NCBI RefSeq assembly: GCF_023336905.1
Contig: NZ_JAMBLS010000018.1
Span: 1-64,000 of the forward strand
DNA length: 64,000 nucleotides
Direction: 5' to 3'
Source of the DNA: Bacteroides sp. ET71
GTDB taxonomy: Bacteria > Bacteroidota > Bacteroidia > Bacteroidales > Bacteroidaceae
The translations under genes and the position numbers were made by a program. The notes under the pieces were generated by a model. It did no database searches, had not been told where the DNA came from, and saw nothing but the letters and a program-made list of their open reading frames with translations. This document shows, one piece after another, positions 37,047-51,217 of the stretch (positions within the stretch are counted from its first letter, which is position 1; every line of letters starts with the position of its first letter).

Positions 37047-37889
37047 ATGGAATTGCAGTATATATTGAAGGCGATTGATGCCGCTTTTCTGGCCGGTGAA
37101 CAAATACGAAGAGTTTATGATGATCCGGATGCTGACTTTCAGGTAGAGCGGAAGGCAGACAACTCTCCTTTGACGATAGCAGACAAACGGGCTCATGCAG
37201 TTATTGCCGACGTTTTGTCTGCTACTCCTTTCCCGGTATTGAGTGAGGAAGGAAAACATATCTCTTACGCGGAAAGGGCTTCGTGGAAGGAACTGTGGGT
37301 GGTTGACCCGTTGGACGGTACCAAGGAGTTTATAAAGCGTAATGGTGAGTTTACTGTAAATATTGCATGGATTTGCCAAGGTGTTCCGGTGGTGGGAGTG
37401 ATTTATGTCCCGGTAAAGAAAGAGCTGTATTTGGGCATTGAGAAGTTTGGCGCTTTTAAGTTGTCTGATGTCATCCGGCGTGAATTTTCTTCGTTGGAAG
37501 AACTGGCGGAGCAAGCTGTTCGTTTGCCGCTGTCGGAAAAACGTGACTCTTGGGTAGTGGTAGCTTCGCGTTCACATTCTACACCGGAAACGGAAGCTTT
37601 CATCGAACGCCTGAGACAACGTCATTCGAAAGTGGAGCTCTTGTCCAGTGGAAGTTCGTTGAAAATTTGCCTTGTTGCCGAGGGGAAAGCGGATGTTTAT
37701 CCGCGTTTTGCTCCTACGATGGAGTGGGATACGGCAGCCGGGCATGCCATTGTACGGGCTGCAGGCGGAGAAATCTGGCAAACGGATTTGAAAAGACCTC
37801 TCTATTATAATAAAGAAGATTTGTTGAACCCGTGGTTCATTGTGCTTCCTAAGGATAGTCCGGAGTTGATGGTAAGTAACAATGACTAA
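37047..37889 (+). CDS. cysQ: 3'(2'),5'-bisphosphate nucleotidase CysQ
   Basis: Hydrolyses 3'-phosphoadenosine 5'-phosphate (PAP) to AMP. Inositol-monophosphatase fold, 280 residues. Metal ligands: VLSEEGK (the Glu pair) and VVDPLDGTKEFIKRNGEF, the signature Asp-Pro-x-Asp-Gly-Thr; the third Asp is in MEWDTAAGHAIVRAAGG. PAP is the product of every PAPS-dependent sulfotransfer and inhibits sulfotransferases, so it fits as first gene of a cluster with PAPS synthesis and a sulfotransferase. The permease gene begins 11 bases later. Confidence 0.94.
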   Translation: MELQYILKAIDAAFLAGEQIRRVYDDPDADFQVERKADNSPLTIADKRAHAVIADVLSATPFPVLSEEGKHISYAERASWKELWVVDPLDGTKEFIKRNGEFTVNIAWICQGVPVVGVIYVPVKKELYLGIEKFGAFKLSDVIRREFSSLEELAEQAVRLPLSEKRDSWVVVASRSHSTPETEAFIERLRQRHSKVELLSSGSSLKICLVAEGKADVYPRFAPTMEWDTAAGHAIVRAAGGEIWQTDLKRPLYYNKEDLLNPWFIVLPKDSPELMVSNND

Positions 37890-37900
37890 TACCGAAAATT

Positions 37901-39472
37901 ATGAATTTTGAAATCATTTTTGTCTTACTTGGACTGATTGGCATGTTGGTGGCGCTCATCATGGACAAGATGCGCCCGGGCATTGTGTTGCTCAGTCTGG
38001 TGGTATTGTTCATGGTGGCGGGCATCATTACCCCTAAGCAGATGGTGGCCGGATTCAGCAACCGGGGAATGATAACCGTGGCTTTGTTGTTTCTGGTCAG
38101 CGAGGGAATCCGCCAAAGCGGTGCTTTGAGCACGGTGGTCAAGAAACTGTTGCCGGAGAAGGGAACTTCTGTCACCAAGGCGCAGATGCGCATATTGCCG
38201 GTGGTCAGTGCTTTCTCGGCTTTTTTGAACAATACGCCGGTGGTCGTAATCTTCGCGCCGATATTGAAGAATTGGGCCAAACGGGTAGGCTTGTCTTGTA
38301 CCAAGTTTCTTATCCCTCTGTCCTATGCCACGATTTTAGGTGGTTTGTGTACGCTTATAGGTACGTCTACCAATCTGGTGGTGCACGGCATGATGATTGA
38401 CAAGGGAATGGAAGGTTTGAAGATGTTCGACCTGGCCTACATCGGCATCCCTATCACGGTGGTGGGGTTGGCCTTCATCATCTTGACTTCCAAGAAACTG
38501 CTTCCGGCCGAGCGCCCGGATAATTTCGAGGAAGAAGAGACGGATGCCGCCGAGGACACGGGGCGTCACGTGGTGGAGGTCGTGTTGGCCTCCCGTTTCC
38601 CGGGATTGAAGCGCAAGCTGAAGAACTTTGATTTCAAGCGCCGTTATGGGGCGGAGGTGAAAGAAATCCGCCAGAACGGCCAGGTGATAACGGAAAACAT
38701 AGGTGAAGTGCGTTTGCAGGAGGGGGATACGCTGGTGCTGCTGGCCGATGATGCCTTTACACGTACCTGGGGCGATTCGTCTGTCTTCCTGATGATGACC
38801 AACGGACAGGAAATTCCGGCCAATCCGGTGCCTGCATGGAAGAAGTGGACGGCCTTTGCACTGCTCATCGTGATGATTGTTGGAGCCACCATCGGTGAAT
38901 TGCCCTATTTTCAGGAACAATTTCCCAAGGTGAAGATGGATATGTTCTTCTTTGCTTCGGTGACGGCAGTGGTGATGGCTTGGCTGAAGATGTTTCCGCC
39001 CAAGAAATACACCAAATATATCAGTTGGGACATCCTGATTACCATCGCGTGCGCTTTTGCCATCAGTGCGGCGATGGAAGAATCCGGGTTGGCAGCATTG
39101 ATAGCCGACTTCATCAAGAGTGTTTCCGGCTCTTTGGGAGCCTGGGGCGCTTTGGGATTGCTGTACCTGGTGACGCTGCTCATTACGGAACTGATTACGA
39201 ACAATGCCGCGGCTGCTTTGGCTTTCCCGTTGGCGCTGGAGACGGCAGCCAAGTTTGGGGTAGACCCCATGCCGTTCTTCATTGCCATCTGTATTGCCGC
39301 TTCTGCCGGATTTGCCACACCCATTGGCTACCAGACGAACCTGATTGTGCAGGGCGCGGGCAACTATAAGTTTACGGACTTTGTGAAAGTGGGCCTTCCG
39401 ATGGATTTGATAGTGATGATTATTTCCGTGGGACTGATTCCGTTGATTTGGCCGTTTACGAGTGTGGCGTAA
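37901..39472 (+). CDS. SLC13-family permease with TrkA-C domain (probable sulfate importer)
   Basis: 523-residue membrane protein. N-terminal transmembrane half to about 200 with NTPVVVIFAPILKNWAKRVG and GTSTNLVVHGMMIDKGMEG, the paired Asn-Thr motifs of the SLC13/DASS family. Residues about 220-295 form a soluble TrkA-C (RCK-C) domain: FDFKRRYGAEVKEIRQNGQ, then LQEGDTLVLLADDAF. The second half has NNAAAALAFPLALETAAKFG and TPIGYQTNLIVQGAGNY. Proteins of this layout next to cysDN are usually taken to import sulfate; that substrate is inferred from context. Confidence 0.85.
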   Translation: MNFEIIFVLLGLIGMLVALIMDKMRPGIVLLSLVVLFMVAGIITPKQMVAGFSNRGMITVALLFLVSEGIRQSGALSTVVKKLLPEKGTSVTKAQMRILPVVSAFSAFLNNTPVVVIFAPILKNWAKRVGLSCTKFLIPLSYATILGGLCTLIGTSTNLVVHGMMIDKGMEGLKMFDLAYIGIPITVVGLAFIILTSKKLLPAERPDNFEEEETDAAEDTGRHVVEVVLASRFPGLKRKLKNFDFKRRYGAEVKEIRQNGQVITENIGEVRLQEGDTLVLLADDAFTRTWGDSSVFLMMTNGQEIPANPVPAWKKWTAFALLIVMIVGATIGELPYFQEQFPKVKMDMFFFASVTAVVMAWLKMFPPKKYTKYISWDILITIACAFAISAAMEESGLAALIADFIKSVSGSLGAWGALGLLYLVTLLITELITNNAAAALAFPLALETAAKFGVDPMPFFIAICIAASAGFATPIGYQTNLIVQGAGNYKFTDFVKVGLPMDLIVMIISVGLIPLIWPFTSVA

Positions 39473-39494
39473 ATAGAAATTTAGTTAACAAAGG

Positions 39495-39579
39495 GACGAG
39501 TTAACAAGGCTACGAGGACAGAGCTTATTCCTTGTCAATTCGTCATTATTACAAGACCTTGTAGCCTTGTTAACTTGTC
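39495..39579. repeat. Long inverted repeat in the permease-cysC spacer
   Basis: Arm 39495-39517 pairs with 39557-39579: 21 of 23 positions, including the core GTTAACAAGGCTAC. It would form a tall hairpin in the polycistronic RNA just before cysC. No U-tract behind it, so termination is not implied. Confidence 0.8.
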
Positions 39580-39599
39580 AACTATTAAATTATTATTTT

Positions 39600-40196
39600 A
39601 TGGAACAACATATTTATCCGATATTTGATAAGATGCTGGCGCGGGCAGATAAGGAGAAGTTGCTGGGCCAGCGGGGCCTGATGATTTGGTTCACCGGCCT
39701 GAGCGGTTCGGGCAAGAGCACCATTGCCATAGCCTTGGAGCGCGAATTGCACCGGCGGGGTATCCTCTGCCGCATCCTGGACGGGGACAACATCCGGAGC
39801 GGCATCAACAACAACCTGGGCTTCACAGAGGCCGACCGCGTGGAGAATATCCGTCGCATCGCCGAGGTGGCCAAGCTGTTCGTGGATACGGGCATCGTCA
39901 CGCTGGCGGCGTTCATCAGTCCCAACAATGACATTCGCGAGATGGCGGCCCGTATCATTGGGAAGGACGATTTCCTGGAGGTGTATGTCAGCACGCCGCT
40001 GGAGGAGTGTGAACGCCGCGATGTGAAGGGGCTGTATGCCAAGGCACGGCGTGGAGAGATAAAGAACTTTACGGGCATAACCGCTCCGTTTGAGGCACCT
40101 GCCCATCCGGCTTTGACCTTGGATACGTCCGTGCTCAGCCTGGAGGAGTCGGTCAATCGTTTGCTGGAACTTGTATTGCCAAAGATAGGTAGATGA
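39600..40196 (+). CDS. cysC: Adenylylsulfate (APS) kinase
   Basis: Phosphorylates APS at 3' to give PAPS. 198 residues from ATG at 39600; an upstream in-frame ATG at 39567 lies inside the inverted repeat and its residues (MLTCQLLNYYF) do not look like APS kinase. Walker A: WFTGLSGSGKSTIA (G33-T41); then LDGDNIRSGINNNLGFTEADR with the conserved APS-binding segment, FISPNNDIREMAARI, and the lid region KGLYAKARRGEIKNFTGI. Separate from CysN here; in some bacteria it is fused. Confidence 0.95.
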   Translation: MEQHIYPIFDKMLARADKEKLLGQRGLMIWFTGLSGSGKSTIAIALERELHRRGILCRILDGDNIRSGINNNLGFTEADRVENIRRIAEVAKLFVDTGIVTLAAFISPNNDIREMAARIIGKDDFLEVYVSTPLEECERRDVKGLYAKARRGEIKNFTGITAPFEAPAHPALTLDTSVLSLEESVNRLLELVLPKIGR

Positions 40197-40211
40197 GTTT
40201 GTTAGTTTGTT

Positions 40212-40303
40212 AGTTCTTGAGTTTATGAGTTTGTTGTTTCTAATTTGGAGGACTTTTAGATGAAGGTAAAACTGTAACTTATAAACTTAAAAACTCAAGA
40301 ACT
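40212..40303. repeat. Long inverted repeat in the cysC-cysD spacer
   Basis: Arm 40212-40232 (AGTTCTTGAGTTT...) pairs with 40283-40303 at 19 of 21 positions. Runs of GTTTGTTAGTTTGTTAG precede it. Sequence unrelated to the permease-cysC repeat, but same layout. Confidence 0.75.
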
Positions 40304-40324
40304 TAAAAACTTAAAAGAATAAAA

Positions 40325-41233
40325 ATGGAAGAATATAAACTGAGCCACCTGAAGGAACTCGAAGCCGAGTCCATACACATTATCCGCGAGGTGGCCGCGG
40401 AGTTTGAGAATCCTGTGATGTTGTACAGCATCGGCAAAGACTCGTCCGTCATGGTACGCCTGGCCGAGAAGGCTTTCTATCCCGGCAAGGTGCCTTTCCC
40501 CTTGATGCACATCGACTCGAAGTGGAAGTTCAAGGAGATGATACAGTTCCGCGACGAGTATGCCAAAAAGTATGGTTGGAACCTCATTGTGGAGAGCAAC
40601 ATGGAGGCTTTCAAGGCAGGTGTGGGGCCTTTCACTCACGGCAGCAAGGTGCACACCGACCTGATGAAGACGCAGGCCCTGCTGCATGCGCTGGACAAGT
40701 ACAAGTTTGATGCGGCTTTTGGCGGGGCACGCCGTGACGAGGAGAAATCCCGCGCCAAGGAGCGTATCTTCTCCTTCCGCGACCGTTTCCACCAGTGGGA
40801 TCCCAAGAACCAGCGGCCGGAGCTGTGGGACATCTACAATGCTCGCGTGCACAAGGGCGAGAGCATCCGCGTCTTTCCCCTGAGTAACTGGACGGAGTTG
40901 GACATCTGGCAATACATCCGTCTGGAGAATATCCCCATCGTCCCTCTTTACTTCGCCAAAGAGCGTCCGGTGGTGGAGATTGACGGCAACCTCATCATGC
41001 CGGACGATGACCGCCTGCCCGAACAGTACCGCGACAAAATCCAGATGAAGAAAATCCGTTTCCGCACCTTGGGTTGCTGGCCTTTGACGGGTGCCATCGA
41101 GAGCGAGGCGGATACCATCGAGAAGATTGTGGAGGAGATGATGACCACCACCAAGAGCGAGCGCACCACGCGTGTCATCGATTTCGACCAGGAGGCCAGC
41201 ATGGAGCAGAAGAAGCGCGAGGGATACTTCTAA
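40325..41233 (+). CDS. cysD: Sulfate adenylyltransferase subunit 2
   Basis: Catalytic subunit of ATP sulfurylase, makes APS from sulfate and ATP. 302 residues, the usual CysD length. PP-loop: [18 protein letters not shown], then [36 protein letters not shown] and WNLIVESN are further blocks. [20 protein letters not shown] is a strongly conserved segment. The C-terminal [20 protein letters not shown] is typical. It works with CysN, which starts 42 bases later. Confidence 0.97.
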
Positions 41234-41275
41234 TTACATGAAGAATGAAGAATTAAGCATTAAGAATGAAGAATT

Positions 41276-42742
41276 ATGGGAAGCGATAAAGATAAATTAG
41301 ATATAAAGACCTTCTTGGATAATGACGAAAAGAAGGATTTATTGCGTTTCTTGACTGCGGGAAGCGTGGATGACGGCAAGTCTACGTTGATAGGGCGCTT
41401 GTTGTTCGATAGCAAGAAGATATACGAGGACCAGCTGGATGCCCTTGAGCGGGATAGCAAGCGCGTGGGCAATGCGGGCGACCATATAGACTATGCCCTC
41501 CTGTTGGACGGGTTGAAGGCCGAGCGTGAGCAGGGCATTACCATTGATGTGGCCTATCGCTATTTCTCGACCAACAAGCGCAAGTTCATCATTGCCGACA
41601 CGCCGGGACATGAGCAATATACACGCAACATGATAACCGGTGGCTCCACGGCCAATTTGGCTATCATCCTGGTGGATGCAAGATTGGGTGTCATCACGCA
41701 GACGCGGCGACATACGTTCCTGGTCTCCTTGCTGGGCATCAAGCACGTGGTGCTGGCCGTGAACAAAATGGACTTGGTGGATTTCTCCGAAGAGCGTTTC
41801 AGTGAGATTGTAGGCGAGTATAAGAAGTTTATTGAGCCGTTGGGCATCCCCGACGTCACCTGCATCCCGCTGTCTGCCCTCGATGGCGACAATGTGGTGG
41901 AGAAGTCCGCCCGCACGCCGTGGTATGCAGGGCCGGCTTTGCTGGACTTCCTGGAGACGGTGCATATCGGCAATGACCATAACTTGCAGGATTTCCGTTT
42001 CCCCGTGCAATATGTACTGCGTCCCAACTTGAATTTCCGTGGCTTCTGCGGCAAAGTCGCTTCGGGCGTGGTGCGCAAAGGCGATGAGGTGGTGGCCCTG
42101 CCATCCGGCAAAAAGTCGCATATCAAGAGCATCGTCACCTATGATGGGGAGTTGGATTATGCTTTCCCTCCTCAATCCGTTACCTTGACCTTGGAGGACG
42201 AGATAGACGTGTCGCGTGGAGAGATGCTGGTGCATCCGGATAATCAGCCCACGATAGGCCGCAACTTCGAGGCGATGCTGGTATGGATGGACGAGGAGCC
42301 GATGGACTTCCGCAAGTCGTTCTTCATCAAGCAGACTACTCACACCAGCCGTTCACACGTGGACAGCATCAAGTATAAGGTTGATGTCAATACGATGGAG
42401 CATCTTTCGCTGGAAAACGGCAAGCTGACCCGGGAAACCCTGCCCATGCAGCTCAACCAGATTGCCCGTGTGGTGATGACCACTGCGCAGGAAATGTTCT
42501 TCGACTCCTACCGGCAGAACAAGGCCACGGGTGCCTTTATCCTGATAGACCCCATTACCAACAATACCAGTGCCGTGGGCATGATTATCGGTCCGGTGCC
42601 TGAAGAGGAGATGCATGCCGATGCGGGATTGCCCGTGCTCGACCTGCAAAAATTGGGCATCGCCCCCGAACACTACGAAGCCATTGACCGCGCGGTAAAG
42701 GAACTGAGCCGTCAAGGGCTGGAGATTGTGGTGAAGCGATAA
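41276..42742 (+). CDS. cysN: Sulfate adenylyltransferase subunit 1
   Basis: GTPase subunit of ATP sulfurylase; GTP hydrolysis drives APS formation. EF-Tu-like, 488 residues: G1 [17 protein letters not shown], switch [20 protein letters not shown] in [11 protein letters not shown], then two beta-barrel domains. No C-terminal APS kinase domain, in agreement with a separate cysC. The 42-base spacer after cysD contains AAGAATGAAGAATTA-type direct repeats and little else. Confidence 0.97.
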
Positions 42743-42756
42743 ATAATTTATTTTTG

Positions 42757-42903
42757 AGGAGTTAGAGGGAGTTATAAGGAGTCATAGGAAGTTATAGGCC
42801 GATAGTTGGTCCGTCGATAATGGCAAAGGTATTGGCCTTTAACTCCCCCAAGCGAAGCGATAACTCCGTCTAACTCCTTTTAACTCCTGCGGGCAAAGCC
42901 CGC
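42757..42903. repeat. Inverted repeats in the cysN-sulfotransferase spacer
   Basis: Arm 42757-42775 (AGGAGTTAGAGGGAGTTAT) pairs with 42860-42878 at 18 of 19 positions, flanking about 84 bases. A second small hairpin, GCGGGC/GCCCGC, is at 42889-42903. No coding frame in the spacer (42743-42940). Confidence 0.8.
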
Positions 42904-42940
42904 TAAATTCCTATTTGTATAACGAACTATACCTGAAGCT

Positions 42941-44047
42941 ATGGGCTTATTAGAATTCAATAAACTCCCCATCAACACCTTGGTGGGGGCCGACTGGAAA
43001 ACCTTCAAGGCGGTGACCGCCGGGCGACAGATTGACCCGGCCTACCGCAACAAGTATCGGTTGACCAAGGCTGTCTGCCGTTTGCTTTCTACGCTGACTT
43101 CCCTGCAGGACAAGCGCTACGAAAAACTCCTGGCCGACCAACCCTTGGAGCACGACCCGCTCTTCATTCTCGGTCATTGGCGCAGCGGTACGACTTTTGT
43201 GCACAATGTCTTCTCGTGTGACAGCCATTTCGGCTACAACACCACTTATCAGACCGTCTTCCCGCATCTGATGATGTGGGGACAACCGTTCTTCAAGAAA
43301 AACATGAGCTGGCTGATGCCCGACAAGCGTCCGACGGACAACATGGAACTGGCCGTAGACCTGCCGCAGGAAGAGGAGTTCGCCTTGGCCAACATGATGC
43401 CCTACACCTATTACAACTTCTGGTTCTTCCCCAAGTACCAGCAGGAGTATGCCGACAAGTACCTCTTGTTCAACGACATCACGCCGGAAGAACTGAAGGC
43501 GTTTGAGGACACGTTCATCAAGCTCATCAAGATTTCCCTGTGGAACACGCATGGCACGCAGTTCCTCAGCAAGAACCCGCCGCACACCGGGCGCGTCCGC
43601 GAACTGGTCAAGATGTTCCCCAACGCCAAGTTCATCTACCTGATGCGCAATCCCTACACCGTCTTCGAGAGCACCCGCAGCTTCTTCACCAACACCATCC
43701 AGCCCCTGAAGCTGGAGGACATCACGCCCGCGGAGCTGGAGCAGAACATCCTGTCCGTCTATGCCAAGCTCTACCACAAGTACGAGGCCGACAAGGCGTG
43801 CATCCCCGCAGGCAACCTCATCGAAGTGAAGTTCGAGGACTTCGAGGCCGATGCCATGGGCATGACCGATCACATCTACCAGGCGCTCAGTCTGCCCGGA
43901 TTCCCCGAAGCCCGCGCCGCCATCGAGAAATATGTGGGCGCGAAGAAAGGATATAAAAAGAACAAATACAAGTATGACGACCGCACCGTGCAGCTCGTGC
44001 AGGACAACTGGGGCTTCGCGCTGGAGCAGTGGAAGTACGAAATATAA
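42941..44047 (+). CDS. PAPS-dependent sulfotransferase
   Basis: 368-residue cytoplasmic sulfotransferase (Sulfotransfer_3-like). The 5'-phosphosulfate loop is FILGHWRSGTTFVHNV (G78-T85) and the 3'-phosphate site is FIYLMRNPYTVFESTRSFF with R236 and S244. HYDPLF-like HDPLFILGH before the loop and FLSKNPPHTGRVRELVKMFP are standard. It lies directly after cysC-cysD-cysN, so it takes PAPS made by its neighbours. The acceptor cannot be read from sequence. A Bacteroides thetaiotaomicron sulfotransferase in a similar gene context (BT_0416, from memory) sulfonates cholesterol and other steroids, so this is a candidate ortholog. Confidence 0.88.
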   Translation: MGLLEFNKLPINTLVGADWKTFKAVTAGRQIDPAYRNKYRLTKAVCRLLSTLTSLQDKRYEKLLADQPLEHDPLFILGHWRSGTTFVHNVFSCDSHFGYNTTYQTVFPHLMMWGQPFFKKNMSWLMPDKRPTDNMELAVDLPQEEEFALANMMPYTYYNFWFFPKYQQEYADKYLLFNDITPEELKAFEDTFIKLIKISLWNTHGTQFLSKNPPHTGRVRELVKMFPNAKFIYLMRNPYTVFESTRSFFTNTIQPLKLEDITPAELEQNILSVYAKLYHKYEADKACIPAGNLIEVKFEDFEADAMGMTDHIYQALSLPGFPEARAAIEKYVGAKKGYKKNKYKYDDRTVQLVQDNWGFALEQWKYEI

Positions 44048-44058
44048 TGGTAAAACTG

Positions 44059-44267
44059 AGAAATTAAACCACAGATAACACGGATTAAATGAGATGAGCA
44101 CAGAAGCATCTGTCACCCCGAGCGTAGTCGAGGGGACTTACATCATGCGTTACGTGAGATGTCTCGACAAGCTCGATATGACAGATACATATTAAAAAAT
44201 CTGTTTAATAAATCTGTGTAAATCTGTATTATCTGTGCCATCAGTGGTCACTCCCGATAAATTATCA
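44059..44267. repeat. Nested inverted repeats, including REP-like element copy 2
   Basis: Outer arms: CACAGATAACACGGATTA (44072 region) and the reverse complement of CACAGATAATACAGATTT near 44225-44243. Inside, ATCTGTCACCCCGAGCGTAG (about 44108-44127) pairs imperfectly with the CTCGACAAGCTCGATATGAC stretch ending near 44186. The inner part shares the gtagtcgag and atgacag words of the elements at 1-111 and 49893-50045. It fills the sulfotransferase-PCMD spacer. Confidence 0.6.
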
Positions 44268-44274
44268 TTTAATT

Positions 44275-45243
44275 ATGCAACCAAAATCTTATTTATTAAG
44301 CCTTCTCCTCGTCTTCCTGGCCTGCGGCCGCTTGGCTGCTCAAGACGCTGAAGTGGTGGAAGAAATCCCCTTCGGCAACATGGACCAGTGGATTGACCGG
44401 CAGATTGAAGAATCCGGCATCATCGGCGGCGACACCAAGCATGTCTATGCCATCGGCCCTACGCAAACCATCACCAACAATGAAGCCTACCGAAATATGG
44501 GCGGCTCGCCTTGGGCATCGTCCAACGTCATGGCTCGTGTGGCCGGTGTCACGAAGACTAACACCTCGGTTTTCCCAGAGAAGCGGGGTAACGGCTACTG
44601 TGCCCGTATGGATACCCGTATGGAGAGCGTGAAGGTGCTGGGGCTGGTCAATATCACCGTGCTGGCCGCTGGTTCCGTTTTCCTGGGCGAGATGCACGAA
44701 CCCATCACCAGCACCAAGGATCCGATGCGTAAACTGGACACCGGCATCCCCTTCACCAAGAAGCCCAAGGCCATCCGTTTCGACTATAAGGTCAAGATGG
44801 CCGACAGCCCTCATCGCATCCGAGCTACCGGCTTCAGCCGTATCAAAGATGTGGAAGGGCGCGACTTCCCCGAAATTAACTTGTATCTGCAAAAGCGTTG
44901 GGAAGATGAAGATGGCAATATTTACGCCAAACGCATCGGAACGTTGGTTGTACGTTATGACCAGACTACTCCTGATTGGCAGAACAACGTGACGTACACC
45001 ATTCTCTATGGTGACATCACGAATCATCCTGATTATAATCCCGATATGATGCGCCTTCAGGTGCAAGAACGATATGCCGTCAACAGTAAAGGTAAGAGTG
45101 TGCCTATTCAGGAAGTAGGTTGGGGGACAGCAGACGATGTACCCACCCACCTGCAACTTCAGTTCACGTCCAGTCATGGAGGCGCCTATATCGGTTCGCC
45201 CGGTAATTCATTTTGGGTGGATAATGTCCGTTTGGTTTATTGA
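44275..45243 (+). CDS. Secreted PCMD-like protein (putative carbohydrate metabolism domain)
   Basis: 322 residues with a signal peptide (MQPKSYLLSLLLVFLACGRL, cleaved near LAAQ). The mature protein is all-beta in character: FGNMDQWIDRQIEESGIIGG near the N-terminus, FDYKVKMADSPHRI in the middle, and the end GSPGNSFWVDNVRLVY. This resembles the PCMD family (PF13201), a jelly-roll domain of Bacteroidetes exported proteins; assigned from pattern memory, so moderate confidence. It follows the sulfotransferase in the same direction; a role in handling the sulfonated product or an external substrate is only a guess. Confidence 0.68.
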   Translation: MQPKSYLLSLLLVFLACGRLAAQDAEVVEEIPFGNMDQWIDRQIEESGIIGGDTKHVYAIGPTQTITNNEAYRNMGGSPWASSNVMARVAGVTKTNTSVFPEKRGNGYCARMDTRMESVKVLGLVNITVLAAGSVFLGEMHEPITSTKDPMRKLDTGIPFTKKPKAIRFDYKVKMADSPHRIRATGFSRIKDVEGRDFPEINLYLQKRWEDEDGNIYAKRIGTLVVRYDQTTPDWQNNVTYTILYGDITNHPDYNPDMMRLQVQERYAVNSKGKSVPIQEVGWGTADDVPTHLQLQFTSSHGGAYIGSPGNSFWVDNVRLVY

Positions 45244-45394: not shown

Positions 45395-45425
45395 TTTGGT
45401 GTAATGAAAAAAGTGTCTATTTTTG
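45395..45425 (+). promoter_or_regulatory. Canonical promoter of the YjbH/OmpA operon
   Basis: TTTG (45395-45398), 19 bases, TATTTTTG (45418-45425): a perfect consensus, 44 bases ahead of the first gene. This separates the operon from the sulfonation cluster. Confidence 0.85.
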
Positions 45426-45468: not shown

Positions 45469-46722
45469 ATGAGGTTAAACAAAAGCGCTGACATGAGAAA
45501 GTGCCTGACTACAAAAACAATAGCACTACTGTTTGGATTTTGCCTGTGTTGCCTGTGGATACAGAAAGGATTGGCTCAGACGGGAGAGGAAACGGTAGAT
45601 GCGTTGGTGGAAATGGGATTTGAGAATGTCGGCTGGACGGAAGATGCCGAAGAACGCGTGTATGTGTTGCAAAACACTGCATATCGCCTGCATGGTATCG
45701 GAATCGGTAAAGCCGTCGACGTGATTCAGGAAATAGGGCTGCCCGAAAACAAATCGTGTCGCATTATTGTTCTGGATAATAACGTACCTCAGATTTCTCT
45801 TTGCTACCATCCCATTATTGGGGACAGCGTGCCGGAAGCCGAACGCCGCGACTGGAATGTCAGTTATGATTTAGACGGGGCTTGGAAGAAAGTGCGCAAG
45901 GTGAAGAAGAAAAATAGTTCTTTGTTCAAGGTTGATATAGTGGTGTATCCTGAGTTATCTATGCAGAATCTGGTTATAAATAAGATGTACACTTTCTTGT
46001 TCAACTTAGATCCCACCATAGAGGTTTCTTTGTGGAAAGGGGGAAAGGCTACTGCACAAGTCATTATTCCTGTTTATAATGAATATGGTTCTGCATACGG
46101 GCAAGTCCGGCAAGGATATATCGGACTAAGCCAGCAAGTGCGGTTGCCGTGGAATACATTCCTGACGGCAGCCGTAGGTTCGTTTACCAACAACCGTTGG
46201 GGAGGCGACTTGAGCGCGATACACTATTTTAAGGACGAACGCTTTTCCGTGGAGGGGCGAATCGGGTATACCGGTGCATCGCGTTTTCATAATTGGCGTT
46301 GGAAGGTAAGTCCGTTGAAACGGTTAACGTGGACATTGGGAGGCGGTTTCTATTGGCCTCAATACAATACGCAGTTCAAACTGAAAGTGGAACAGTATTT
46401 GTTGGGGGAAAAGGGAGTCCGGTTTGAAATGACGCGTAACTTTCGCTATACTTCCATCGGTTTCTATGGCATGAAAGTGCAATATGCCGGAAACAATGGT
46501 TATAATGCAGGTTTCCGTTTTCAGATAAACTTGCCTCCGTATAAGTATAAGAGAAGAGGCTATATCCCGCGTGTGTTGCCTTCCCGGTCATTCGGAATGT
46601 CATACAACGCAGGGAACGAACGCTACTATGGCAAGTCCTACACCCCGGTGTTGGGCAATACCATAGCGCAAGAGAATAGTCTGAACCCATATTTTATAAA
46701 GAGTGAATTGTTAAATTTTTAA
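45469..46722 (+). CDS. YjbH-like outer-membrane beta-barrel protein, second-half type
   Basis: 417 residues. Signal peptide (ALLFGFCLCCLWIQKGLAQ), an N-terminal domain of about 130 residues (VDALVEMGFENVGWTEDAEE, reminiscent of secretin/DUF-type soluble domains), then alternating strands such as GQVRQGYIGLSQQVRLPWNT, FSVEGRIGYTGASRFHNWRW and MKVQYAGNNGYNAGFRFQIN. The pattern is like the C-terminal part of YjbH, a lipoprotein/barrel of the Gram-negative exopolysaccharide (group 4 capsule-like) systems. Annotation by resemblance only. First of four genes; a second YjbH-like gene follows two genes later. Start at 45493 also possible. Confidence 0.62.
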   Translation: MRLNKSADMRKCLTTKTIALLFGFCLCCLWIQKGLAQTGEETVDALVEMGFENVGWTEDAEERVYVLQNTAYRLHGIGIGKAVDVIQEIGLPENKSCRIIVLDNNVPQISLCYHPIIGDSVPEAERRDWNVSYDLDGAWKKVRKVKKKNSSLFKVDIVVYPELSMQNLVINKMYTFLFNLDPTIEVSLWKGGKATAQVIIPVYNEYGSAYGQVRQGYIGLSQQVRLPWNTFLTAAVGSFTNNRWGGDLSAIHYFKDERFSVEGRIGYTGASRFHNWRWKVSPLKRLTWTLGGGFYWPQYNTQFKLKVEQYLLGEKGVRFEMTRNFRYTSIGFYGMKVQYAGNNGYNAGFRFQINLPPYKYKRRGYIPRVLPSRSFGMSYNAGNERYYGKSYTPVLGNTIAQENSLNPYFIKSELLNF

Positions 46723-46732
46723 TTTTATTGAG

Positions 46733-47662
46733 ATGAAAATGAAAAGTAAATTTTTCGGGCTGAATGCCAAGTTGGCATTAGCTGTGTTGGCAGTGGGTGC
46801 GATGTTTACTGGCTGCTATGATTCTGAAAACGGTGATGTTACGAAGCCGTATGTTGCACCGGATCCAGTGTATACTGTGTCAGGTACCGTAACGGATGCT
46901 TTGACAGGTGATGTAATTGAGACTGCTAGGGTTACGGTATCGGATAGCAAAGGCGACCTGGAATGGAAGGCAGGAACTTATTCTGTGCAAGTAAATAGTT
47001 CCGGCAGTAAAACTGTTACAGTTGAAGCTGAGGGTTATGATAAAGTGACTCGTGACATCACTATTGCACCTTTGGAGAAGGGGCAAGCTTCTACTACCGT
47101 AGTGAATGTGGCTTTAACTAAAACTGGCGCTATTAATATTAATAATGTTAAGGTTTCTGTCGGTGATTCAAAGGCTGCAGCTATACCTAAAGTTTTGAAG
47201 CCTGAAGGGGAGGAATTTAAAGGATTGGATCTGACTGCGGATGAAAATGAAGCTGTTTTTGTGCGTAATTTCAAGGTTGTAGTCGGCGCTGTTACTGATC
47301 CTGAGGATATCGAAGAAGCCTTTGCCGGTGCTCCTTCTGGTTTGATTGATTATGCCAAAAGTTATTTGGGCGCTTTAATTGGAATGTTCGGTAAAGCGCA
47401 ACAGATAGAAGTTCCTTATACGATTTCTATTCCTCCTTACCAATGCGTTGAGGATGTCACTATTACTTATAATATTGTAGAAACACTTTATACGTTTGAA
47501 TATAAAGGTGACATTTATAATGTTTCGGTTAAAGGTGTAAGGACATATACTTTCAGTACGAATTTTGTACCTAACCATAATTTTAGCCATACTCATGGAC
47601 ACGGGCATGGAGAAAATGGTGCACTGAATGCTGGTGGCGGTATCTTAACTTCCGAAATGTAA
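46733..47662 (+). CDS. Lipoprotein with carboxypeptidase-like domain and His-rich tail (DUF3869-like)
   Basis: 309 residues. Lipoprotein signal ALAVLAVGAMFTGC, then CYDSENGDVTKPY with an acidic stretch. Residues about 42-125 form a CarboxypepD_reg-like beta domain (YTVSGTVTDALTGDVIETAR, VTVEAEGYDKVTRDI). The remainder resembles, from memory, the Bacteroides family DUF3869. The C-terminus HNFSHTHGHGHGENG has six His within 13 residues and suggests a metal-binding tail. It lies 10 bases after the first YjbH-like gene and 40 before the second. Confidence 0.65.
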   Translation: MKMKSKFFGLNAKLALAVLAVGAMFTGCYDSENGDVTKPYVAPDPVYTVSGTVTDALTGDVIETARVTVSDSKGDLEWKAGTYSVQVNSSGSKTVTVEAEGYDKVTRDITIAPLEKGQASTTVVNVALTKTGAININNVKVSVGDSKAAAIPKVLKPEGEEFKGLDLTADENEAVFVRNFKVVVGAVTDPEDIEEAFAGAPSGLIDYAKSYLGALIGMFGKAQQIEVPYTISIPPYQCVEDVTITYNIVETLYTFEYKGDIYNVSVKGVRTYTFSTNFVPNHNFSHTHGHGHGENGALNAGGGILTSEM

Positions 47663-47702
47663 ATTGAAAGGAACTAAGTAGAAAGTAAAGTTAGGAAGAA
47701 TA

Positions 47703-48455
47703 ATGATGTTAAAGAAAATATTATTATTTGGTGTAGTTTTATGCTTTCCTCTCTTGCTTTCTGCTCAATTGACGTATGGCACCACCGGTCTTCTCCATGC
47801 CCCCTCGGCAGAGATGCAGCGGGATAAGACGGTGATGATCGGTGGTAACTTTCTGAACAAGGAGATTACTCCTCCTACGTGGTATTACCATACGTACAAT
47901 TACTTTCTGAATGTAACCATCTTTCCGTGGTTGGAGGTTGCCTATACGTGTACCCTCTTTAAAGCGGAAGCATTGGGTCTGAAGCCCTATGGTTATTCCG
48001 GTTTTACCAACCAAGACCGATACTTCTCTTTCCGGCTTCGGTTGCTGAAGGAAGGCCAGTTTTGGAAGTATATGCCGGCAGTGGTAGTGGGAACCTCGGA
48101 CCCCTATACAGAGTCAGGAGACGGACAGATTTCGTCGACGGAAGGAAACGGGTATTTTTGCCGCTTTTACGTGGCTGCTACCAAGTTCATCCCGGTAGGC
48201 AAGAAAGAACAGATAGGTGTGCACCTGTCTTGGCTTTTCAACCACCGCAAAGACTATCCGCTCAATGGACCGGCTGTAGGGTTGACGTGGAATCCGTCGT
48301 TCCACCCTCAGTTGAGAGTGATTGCAGAATACGACGCGAAAGATGTCGCAGTGGGTGCCACCTATTTGCTTTTCAACCATTTGCACGCGCAGGTAGAATT
48401 GCAAAAAATGAAGTACTTTACCGGCGGTCTTACTTATAAGATTTATTTGAAGTAA
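47703..48455 (+). CDS. YjbH-like outer-membrane protein, first-half type
   Basis: 250 residues. Signal peptide (LLFGVVLCFPLLLSA), mature start QLTYGTTGLLHAPSAEMQRD, which matches the 'YGxxGLlxxPsA' beginning of YjbH proteins. The rest is barrel-like: PWLEVAYTCTLFKAEALGL, FSFRLRLLKEGQFWKYMPAV, LRVIAEYDAKDVAVGATYLL and the closing TGGLTYKIYLK. Its function is unknown; YjbH proteins are connected with polysaccharide export. Full-length YjbH is about 700 residues, so here its two parts seem to be coded by separate genes. Confidence 0.72.
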   Translation: MMLKKILLFGVVLCFPLLLSAQLTYGTTGLLHAPSAEMQRDKTVMIGGNFLNKEITPPTWYYHTYNYFLNVTIFPWLEVAYTCTLFKAEALGLKPYGYSGFTNQDRYFSFRLRLLKEGQFWKYMPAVVVGTSDPYTESGDGQISSTEGNGYFCRFYVAATKFIPVGKKEQIGVHLSWLFNHRKDYPLNGPAVGLTWNPSFHPQLRVIAEYDAKDVAVGATYLLFNHLHAQVELQKMKYFTGGLTYKIYLK

Positions 48456-48512
48456 GAAAATGGTCGGAGCAAATATGAATAAAAAGAGTTGAAATATTAA
48501 AAACAAAAAACA

Positions 48513-49703
48513 ATGAAAAGTAAATTAGTAATATTATCTTTGATGTTGGCAGGTGCAGTAATGACTGTAAATGCACAAACAAAAGAGAAATACGTCAACG
48601 AAAAAGCTTCGGATAATATATTCGTGAGTGTTACGGGCGGTATTTCTATGACGAACTCGGGTAAGAGTGAGGGCAAGTTTGGTAGCCCGGCTCCCCACAT
48701 TACAGTGTCGGTTGGTAAATGGATTACTCCCGTTTGGGCTGTTCGTGCTCAGGGAGGTCTGTGGAGAACTAATTTCGATACATTCTGGTCGAAAGGCACA
48801 TATGCAGAAAATGGTGATATGCTTGGCTCTGACAATAGCTATCACAAGAATGTGGGACAGTTGCGCTTGGATGCTATGTTCAATATTTCTAATGCTATTT
48901 GGGGCTATAATCCTGATCGTCTGTTTAACTTGTCGGTTTTCGCAGGCCCAGGCTTAACGATTGCTAAAGGTAATGGCTCATTTGACGTAGTGAATAATTC
49001 CACTAATACAGCTTGGTCTAAAGTTCAAAGTGGAGATAACAATGTGGGTGCTTATGTGAACGGTTCTGTTGGTTTGCAGGGTAAGTTCAATGTTAATAAG
49101 TATTGGGATATTGATGTAGAAGCTCGCGGTGAGTTGGCTTCTTCTTACTTGGGTTATTTGTCTTCTTCTCGTACGGTAGGTGGTCTCTACTTTGGCGTAG
49201 GTGCTACTTATACTTTTGGTGGCAAGAAGTTTGTGCCTTATACATCTAAGGTTGATATAGACGCATTGAATGCAGAAATCAACAAGTATAGAAGTGAACT
49301 TGAGCAGGCACAGACAGACTTGGCAAGTGCTAAGAATGCTGCTGCAAATGTAGAGCCGGAGGTTCGCGAAGTAGTGAAGGAAGTACAGGTTGCAGGTCCG
49401 CGTGCTATCTTCTTCAAGATTGGTAGTGCCCGTCTGGATGATTATGGCAAGGTGAATATCAAGTTGGCTGCCAAGATTCTGAAAGAAAATCCGGACAAGA
49501 AGTACAAAGTTGCCGGTTATGCTGATAAGGCTACAGGTAGCGCTTCTTGGAACCAGAAGTTGTCTGAAAAACGTGCTCAGGTGGTTTACGATGCTCTGAT
49601 TGCTGAGGGCGTTGATAAAGACCAACTCGAACTCGTAGGCTTCGGCGGTACTGAGAATATGTTCGGTAAGAACTTCTTGAACCGTGTGGTTATTCTTGAG
49701 TAA
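48513..49703 (+). CDS. OmpA family protein
   Basis: 396 residues. Signal peptide (LVILSLMLAGAVMTVNA), N-terminal beta-barrel (about 22-245, ending GGLYFGVGATYTFGGKKFVP), a coiled-coil linker (DALNAEINKYRSELEQAQTD) and the OmpA peptidoglycan-binding domain (about 285-396): FFKIGSARLDDYGKVNIKLA, YKVAGYADKATGSASWNQKL and SEKRAQVVYDALIAEGVDKD, with the C-terminal Arg of the family (NRVVILE). It anchors the outer membrane to the wall. Last gene of the YjbH operon, ending at a terminator. Confidence 0.92.
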   Translation: MKSKLVILSLMLAGAVMTVNAQTKEKYVNEKASDNIFVSVTGGISMTNSGKSEGKFGSPAPHITVSVGKWITPVWAVRAQGGLWRTNFDTFWSKGTYAENGDMLGSDNSYHKNVGQLRLDAMFNISNAIWGYNPDRLFNLSVFAGPGLTIAKGNGSFDVVNNSTNTAWSKVQSGDNNVGAYVNGSVGLQGKFNVNKYWDIDVEARGELASSYLGYLSSSRTVGGLYFGVGATYTFGGKKFVPYTSKVDIDALNAEINKYRSELEQAQTDLASAKNAAANVEPEVREVVKEVQVAGPRAIFFKIGSARLDDYGKVNIKLAAKILKENPDKKYKVAGYADKATGSASWNQKLSEKRAQVVYDALIAEGVDKDQLELVGFGGTENMFGKNFLNRVVILE

Positions 49704-50152: not shown

Positions 50153-51217
50153 ATGACTATCATTGCCAATCCGATTTACGATTCAGTATTCAAGTTCCTG
50201 ATGGAAGATGAGCGTGCAGCCAAGGTGCTGCTTTCCGCATTGTTGAAGCAGGAGGTCCGTGAACTGAAAATGCGGAGAAATGAATATACGAATATCCGTC
50301 AGACACGCATTTCGTTGTTTCGCATTGACTTTTCTGCCAAGATACATGATTCGGCGGGAAAGGAGCAGTTGGTGCTGATTGAGTTGCAGAAAACTTGGTT
50401 GGCCACGGAGACGTTAAGGTTCCGTCAGTATCTTGGTGCGCAATACCTGAACAATGAGAATGTGCCTTCGGGTGAGAATGTCGGCGGCTATGGCTTGCCC
50501 ATCATTTCGATTTATATCTTGGGTCATAAGTTAGGTGATTTGCAGGAACCGGTGGTTTATGTCCGCCGCCGTTATTTGGATTATGACAGTAATGTGATAG
50601 AAGAAGGTGTTCCGGACCCTTTTATTGAGAGCTTGACACATGACAGTGTGATTGTGCAGCTTCCTTATTTGCGTGGTCGTGCCCGTAATCATTTGGAGAG
50701 ATTGTTGAGCGTGTTCGATCAGGAATATCGTGTGGCTGCGGACGAGCATTTGCTCCAAATAGATGATGAGAGAATGGACAGTGAGGGACGTCTGTTGGTG
50801 AATCGCCTGGTAATGGCTGCAGCTTCTCCAGAGATCAGGCGTGATATGCAAGTGGAGGATGAAATCTTGTCTGAAATCGAGGCTCGTGATACGACCATTA
50901 TGATGAAAGACAAGGAGATAGAACAGAAATCTCAGGAGATAGAACAGAAGTCCCAAGAGATAAAGCAGAAAACTCAGGAGATAGAACAGAAATCCCAAGA
51001 GATAAAGCAGAAGTCCCAAGAGATAAAGCAGAAAACTCAGGAGATAGAACAGAAATCTCAGGAGATAGAACGGAAGTCCCAAGAGATAGAGCACCAAAGG
51101 ACTATTTTGCGTGTAACAGTGCGGAATCTTTCTTCGCGTGGTATGACTGTTGCTGAGATTGCCAAAATTTTGTCTGTCCCGAAAGAACTGGTGGATTCTT
51201 TATTAGATGGACGGTAA
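50153..51217 (+). CDS. Rpn family recombination-promoting nuclease/putative transposase, with heptad repeat
   Basis: 354 residues. The PD-(D/E)XK nuclease core is N-terminal: NPIYDSVFKFLMEDERAAKV, RIDFSAKIHDSAGKEQLVLI, ELQKTW (the E-x-Q/K element). Residues 255-310 are eight perfect-length copies of EIEQKSQ/EIKQKTQ-type heptads coded by a 21-base minisatellite at 50915-51082. The end (LRVTVRNLSSRGMTVAEIAK, ILSVPKELVDSLL) is the helical motif of intact family members. Rpn proteins are linked to RecA-independent recombination and, in recent work, phage defence with in-frame short products. No transposase neighbours or terminal repeats are seen. Confidence 0.87.
   Translation: MTIIANPIYDSVFKFLMEDERAAKVLLSALLKQEVRELKMRRNEYTNIRQTRISLFRIDFSAKIHDSAGKEQLVLIELQKTWLATETLRFRQYLGAQYLNNENVPSGENVGGYGLPIISIYILGHKLGDLQEPVVYVRRRYLDYDSNVIEEGVPDPFIESLTHDSVIVQLPYLRGRARNHLERLLSVFDQEYRVAADEHLLQIDDERMDSEGRLLVNRLVMAAASPEIRRDMQVEDEILSEIEARDTTIMMKDKEIEQKSQEIEQKSQEIKQKTQEIEQKSQEIKQKSQEIKQKTQEIEQKSQEIERKSQEIEHQRTILRVTVRNLSSRGMTVAEIAKILSVPKELVDSLLDGR
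50915..51082 (+). repeat. Coding minisatellite, 21-base unit, eight copies
   Basis: Units start with GAGATAGAACAGAA or GAGATAAAGCAGAA and end in TCTCAG, TCCCAA or ACTCAG. All are 21 bases (7 codons), so gain or loss of copies keeps the frame. The variants are partly ordered (pairs such as AAACTCAG recur every third unit), a sign of multi-unit duplication. Confidence 0.9.

Follow-up and report, generated by a model that had tools for sequence, protein, structure and literature searches.

The 64,000-nucleotide stretch of Bacteroides sp. ET71 analyzed here (contig NZ_JAMBLS010000018.1; hereafter the window) carries a run of six genes, cysQ, an SLC13-like permease gene, cysC, cysD, cysN and a sulfotransferase gene (the six-gene core), followed by a gene for a secreted PCMD-domain protein. 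The cluster is very probably the known Bacteroides steroid-sulfonation operon, of the BT_0411–BT_0416 type, and is ordinary for its genus. The cluster itself being already known, what is new here is a second permease type that appears to have displaced the usual one in place, together with apparent exchange of the core between species. We lean slightly toward the view that the segment beginning at the permease gene or cysC and ending at the sulfotransferase stop is a cassette that can be exchanged, having recombined between gut Bacteroides species beside the same downstream neighbors. On this view, the second permease took over the position of the usual one on more than one occasion, and steroid sulfonation and its sulfate supply have spread independently of species. 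If this is true, whether a bacterium sulfonates steroids would be read from its gene content and not from its species name.

A Probable Steroid-Sulfonation Operon

The seven reading frames, from cysQ to the PCMD gene, are intact and collinear on the + strand between positions 37047 and 45243, and their products match their families above cut-off, with curated NCBIfam cut-offs used for the cys genes and Pfam cut-offs for the permease, the sulfotransferase and the PCMD protein (Table 1). These matches bear out the original prediction, made from the DNA alone, of a collinear cluster for import, synthesis of 3'-phosphoadenosine 5'-phosphosulfate (PAPS), sulfotransfer and removal of 3'-phosphoadenosine 5'-phosphate (PAP). 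The permease would bring in sulfate, from which CysDN would make adenosine 5'-phosphosulfate (APS). CysC would convert APS to PAPS, and the sulfotransferase would transfer the sulfuryl group of PAPS to the hydroxyl group of cholesterol or of a steroid like it. CysQ would remove the inhibitory PAP. The product, called a sulfonate ester in the prediction, would instead be a sulfate ester.

To place the cluster, 80 related loci were kept of 315 found; B. thetaiotaomicron is not in the 80. The window sulfotransferase is 87% identical to its orthologs in Phocaeicola vulgatus ATCC 8482 (locus L062) and in a B. fragilis strain (L066) and 86% identical to that of B. faecis (L086), and all three clusters have the gene order of the window. 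The closest species-named sulfotransferases among the loci kept, at 97%, are those of Candidatus Bacteroides merdipullorum and Candidatus Bacteroides intestinipullorum. All six core genes, each over more than 85% of its length and on the + strand, are present in 64 of the 80 loci, and thus the gene order is not due to chance. Of these complete loci, 62 pass the order rule; the other two, L058 and L062, fail it through matches that run past the cysQ stop, and their match positions are in the order of the window. The remaining 16 loci are without at least one core gene, some of them being short contigs or split matches. Three of the 80 (L030, L089, L099) lack every cys gene of the cluster in the 9 kb upstream of the sulfotransferase, and in three (L083, L068, L106) it is preceded by cysD alone or by cysD and cysN. 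These arrangements indicate that the sulfotransferase can stand apart from the cluster.

The B. thetaiotaomicron locus is described by Le et al. (2022; PMC9417993). In that description, BT_0411–BT_0415 are putative PAPS genes, with BT_0412 a sulfate importer, that adjoin BT_0416, a cholesterol sulfotransferase that is active in Escherichia coli and in vitro and whose deletion abolishes cholesterol sulfate (PMC9417993). BT_0416 also matters for cholesterol sulfate in monocolonized mice, and both BT_0412 and BT_0416 are induced by cholesterol (PMC9417993). All seven or so Bacteroides screened in that work gave cholesterol sulfate, the named makers being B. ovatus, B. fragilis, B. caccae, B. uniformis, B. 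vulgatus and B. thetaiotaomicron; five bile acids were tested with B. thetaiotaomicron and none was sulfated. The acceptors of the B. thetaiotaomicron enzyme (btSULT) are given as cholesterol, isoallolithocholic acid and dehydroepiandrosterone (PMC11271093, citing Le et al. and Yao et al. 2022), B. dorei has a like cluster with a sulfotransferase 87.5% identical to BT_0416 (PMC10666794), and BT_0416 is treated as a known PAPS-dependent enzyme (PMC10932419, PMC13008668).

By this account the gene content of BT_0411–BT_0416 is that of the window, and orthology to BT_0416 was judged via the B. fragilis, P. vulgatus and B. faecis proteins. The predicted kinship with the BT_0416 group thus rests on 86–87% identity together with synteny. 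The prediction had called the acceptor open; it is less open than that, because close orthologs in the same gene order come from species that make cholesterol sulfate (PMC9417993), and orthology assigns a steroid as the probable acceptor. Two features set the window apart from the related clusters: its permease is of a second type, 61–64% identical to the P. vulgatus, B. fragilis and B. faecis permeases, and its cysN–sulfotransferase spacer is longer, at 198 bases compared with a median of 51 (75 loci, window included). With this assignment, a pathway that reportedly alters cholesterol and cholesterol sulfate in the host is extended to one more species, the closest relatives of which carry names that refer to the chicken gut.

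The window protein has both a Sulfotransfer_3 match above cut-off and the PAPS-sulfotransferase fold. That match is the only one of its family in the genome, and the sole Sulfotransfer_1 match, below cut-off, is to the same gene. Residues 78–86 and 207–219, which may be the nucleotide-binding (PAPS) loops, are invariant in 40 sequences, all of them close orthologs (89% mean column identity). Placement among sulfotransferases was by fold comparison and a sample of the phylum (11 of 296 genomes matched). The mycobacterial STF9 and STF1 (2z6v, 2zq5) are 14–16% identical to the window protein, and human SULT2A1 shares the PAPS-dependent fold and, like BT_0416, has steroid acceptors.

An alternative is that the cluster sulfonates an endogenous lipid or a bacterial surface glycan, with steroids as side substrates. 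The operon is widely conserved across Bacteroidaceae, and enzymes that sulfate glycans or proteins are among the solved relatives of the sulfotransferase fold. A secreted PCMD protein is often found next to the operon, and the structures that it resembles, weakly and in part, are named as putative or hypothetical glycoside hydrolases. However, BT_0416 uses cholesterol in vitro and affects cholesterol sulfate in mice, cholesterol induces BT_0412 and BT_0416 (PMC9417993), and PCMD is separable from the cluster (see below). We therefore consider an endogenous acceptor unlikely, and a steroid the probable one.

No Reductive Outlet for PAPS Found in the Genome

The analyzed genome is 3.63 Mb in 189 contigs and 99.58% complete, with the cluster on contig 18. 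A search of it with the cysH model gave only a subthreshold match, to cysD, and a search for the sulfite reductase domain NIR_SIR gave no match. A second protein with a PAPS_reduct-domain match was rejected as CysH, being a DUF3440 protein. The original prediction had noted that the cluster holds no PAPS reductase or sulfite reductase; this extends to the whole genome. Presence of cysH or cysJI elsewhere, regulated together with the cluster, had been named at the outset as evidence against the prediction; such genes were looked for in the genome and none was found above cut-off. Seven Sulfatase-family proteins match above cut-off in the genome and are possible sources of sulfate.

The same picture emerges within the genus. 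Of 37 same-genus genomes, the window's own included, 20 carry the sulfotransferase together with a full APS kinase, and 14 carry neither gene. The other three (G002, G015, G033) were rejected as cases of PAPS genes without a sulfotransferase, their PAPS genes being cut off by contig ends. CysH is above cut-off in 1 of the 20 sulfotransferase-bearing genomes (G004) and in 1 of the 17 others (G035), compared with 13 of 24 genomes from other families of the order. In G039 and G047 the APS kinase matches are short, and they were left out of the counts. Because several of the 37 genomes are only 61–90% complete, absence in any one of these is weak evidence.

These data bear on whether the cluster could be mainly assimilatory, taking PAPS to sulfide and cysteine, with the sulfotransferase as a passenger. 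Assimilatory sulfate reduction, which combines cysDNC with cysH and a sulfite reductase, indeed shares CysD, CysN and CysC with the window, and 9 of the 24 other-family genomes have both a long APS kinase match and CysH above cut-off. In contrast to that pathway, a 99.58% complete genome here has neither CysH above cut-off nor an NIR_SIR match, and within the genus a genome without the sulfotransferase has no APS kinase, the three contig cuts excepted. An assimilatory role is thus largely refuted and very improbable; PAPS would instead feed sulfotransfer.

Two genomes stand out individually. G004 carries the sulfotransferase and CysH on separate contigs (8 and 121). G033 has two runs of PAPS genes (L125, L126), each truncated at a contig end. 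Their permeases share 97% and 92% identity with that of the window, and the second run is either a second copy or contamination.

Two Types of Permease

The second gene of the cluster, as originally predicted, encodes an SLC13-like permease, with PF03600 and PF00939 above cut-off, whereas the DASS model TIGR00785 scores below its cut-off. The nearest solved kin by sequence are VcINDY and then human SLC13A1, and sulfate is presumed to be the transported ion.

Permeases from 66 loci, including the window, were assembled; that of L082 was excluded because of an inner stop, and the other 65 were compared. They fall into two sequence types: type A (15 of 65, window included) is 85–100% identical to the window permease and type B (50 of 65) is 56–64% identical to it. 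Type A forms one clade on the permease tree. On the CysD+CysN+sulfotransferase tree it does not (AU test p 0.0008); there, the permease type changes three times, at least two of these changes being forced by well-supported branches. Both trees are quick ones (LG+G4), with some rows, such as L107, long-branched. The median A–B permease identity is 62–64% in every bin of sulfotransferase identity, and the median A–A identity is 86–87% in the bins from 76 to 92%. Because type A is a clade only on its own tree and A–B identity is flat across bins, we infer from these comparisons that the second permease type displaced the usual one in place. A second type A copy outside the operon was found in none of 61 genomes, in which matches elsewhere are far weaker.

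The loci checked from species that make cholesterol sulfate (L062, L066) both carry type B. The two types share three Pfam families (CitMHS, Na_sulph_symp and DctM), and a TrkA_C match below cut-off occurs in both type B proteins scanned but not in the window permease. The types are types of sequence, and no functional difference is claimed.

Apparent Exchange of the Core between Species

Exchange was assessed as the mean nucleotide identity of cysD, cysN and the sulfotransferase gene minus that of the flanking ruvX and def, over 703 pairs of 38 loci. The difference has a median of 2.4 and a maximum of 22.8, and it is at least 15 in nine pairs, all between metagenome assemblies. Among four loci, L032, L034, L035 and L041, five of the six pairs reach 20.5–22.8. 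In these five pairs cysC, cysD, cysN and the sulfotransferase gene are 93–98% identical, compared with 63–66% for cysQ, 68–80% for the PCMD gene, 71–73% for ruvX and 74–79% for def outside the segment. L035 and L041 are 95–98% identical throughout, flanks included, and so are counted once, which leaves three lineages (L032, L034 and L035/L041). A further locus, L037, also a metagenome assembly, may represent a fourth lineage with the exchanged core: against these four loci its core is 93–98% identical, its cysQ 67–73% and its permease 76–84%, and its contig ends after the sulfotransferase gene.

The ends of the shared segment are also visible. In 150-base blocks, identity drops close to where the sulfotransferase gene ends and, on the other side, where either cysC or the permease gene begins. 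The permease gene follows the core when L032 is compared with L035/L041 (97–98% identity) but not in comparisons with L034 (74–75%). The cysN–sulfotransferase spacer is 83–99% identical among these loci, and the cysD–cysN spacer is common to L032 and L034 only. Since the apparently exchanged segments begin at cysC or the permease gene and end near the sulfotransferase stop, these genes are suggested to form a unit. Collectively, the identities suggest that, in at least three lineages represented by metagenome assemblies, the segment from cysC to the sulfotransferase has been exchanged between species.

For comparison, 14 loci were judged by their titles not to be metagenome-assembled; titles with the word "isolate" were set aside, and this may have removed some true isolates. 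The 91 pairs of these loci reach a difference of 9.2 at most, compared with 22.8 overall. An artifact of metagenome assembly is therefore a possible explanation of the largest values. The difference for the window is weaker, at 12.7 against L029, 12.4 against L035 and 12.1 against L041, and could alternatively be explained by stronger constraint on the core genes. We found no description of the permease types or of core exchange in the titles and abstract openings of the papers listed on the locus, on sulfate permease, PAPS and sulfotransferase in Bacteroides, or on horizontal transfer of the sulfotransferase.

The PCMD Protein, Probably Only a Chromosomal Neighbor

The PCMD gene had been put forward as an unexplored member of the cluster. 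If its product were a working part of the pathway, it might, for example, bind or release the steroid at the surface. The gene lies downstream in 53 of the 64 complete loci, and a strong match occurs in all 20 same-genus genomes with the sulfotransferase compared with 1 of the 17 without a detected one (a weak match in G002, E 8.4e-4, was not counted). Against membership, the exception, G034, keeps PCMD between a SPOR gene and ruvX, with the SPOR gene, PCMD, ruvX and def adjacent (L129, 3574–7181) and no cluster gene between the first two. Seven complete loci with more than 8.9 kb downstream (L050, L058, L062, L070, L072, L100, L105) have no PCMD gene, that of P. vulgatus (L062) among them. 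Genomes of other families that lack the sulfotransferase (G039, G044, G057) carry PCMD relatives at 38–46% identity, and PCMD lies beyond the apparently exchanged segment. Joint inheritance was thus not found, as PCMD and the cluster each occur without the other, though they are correlated within the genus. The protein has weak, partial matches only, to structures named as putative or hypothetical glycoside hydrolases. We read PCMD as a chromosomal neighbor whose pathway membership is weakened to the point of being improbable, which gives a sharper view of the genes that belong to steroid sulfonation.

Gene Coordinates and Neighboring Genes

Table 1. Genes of the cluster, with window coordinates and family matches
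Gene or product	Position	Strand	Family match
cysQ, 3'(2'),5'-bisphosphate nucleotidase (predicted PAP removal)	37047..37889	+	TIGR01331 equivalog 263.3 bits, cut-off 228.8; PF00459
SLC13/DASS-like anion permease, type A, presumed sulfate importer	37901..39472	+	CitMHS PF03600 206 bits, cut-off 32; Na_sulph_symp PF00939 49 bits, cut-off 27
cysC, APS kinase	39567..40196	+	TIGR00455 233.5 bits, cut-off 138.7
cysD, ATP sulfurylase small subunit	40325..41233	+	TIGR02039 506.7 bits, cut-off 396.6
cysN, ATP sulfurylase GTPase subunit	41276..42742	+	TIGR02034 610.8 bits, cut-off 336.1
PAPS-dependent sulfotransferase, BT_0416-group ortholog	42941..44047	+	Sulfotransfer_3 PF13469 144 bits, cut-off 27
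Secreted PCMD-domain protein, conserved neighbor	44275..45243	+	PF13201 81.9 bits, cut-off 28

The listed start of cysC is a TTG at 39567, and the translation has an in-frame ATG at 39600, which is the likelier start. The signal peptide of the PCMD protein was judged by eye. The strict form of the Bacteroides-type promoter occurs once between 36500 and 46000, at 45395, downstream of the PCMD gene; looser forms are too common to carry meaning, with the -7 box matching the + strand of the window 32 times.

Farther downstream, in front of ruvX, lies a gene for a 354-aa protein in which seven-residue units, nearly identical to each other, follow one after another (50153–51217); it has no match at E 1e-5 in the 80 related loci, many of which end before that point. 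Between the PCMD gene and this one, positions 45469–49703 encode four proteins: one of 417 aa that matches no Pfam family, a lipoprotein that matches DUF3869, one that is YjbH-like and an OmpA protein. The order, strand and place of these four genes beside the cluster differ between loci, and the block is outside the sulfonation cluster.

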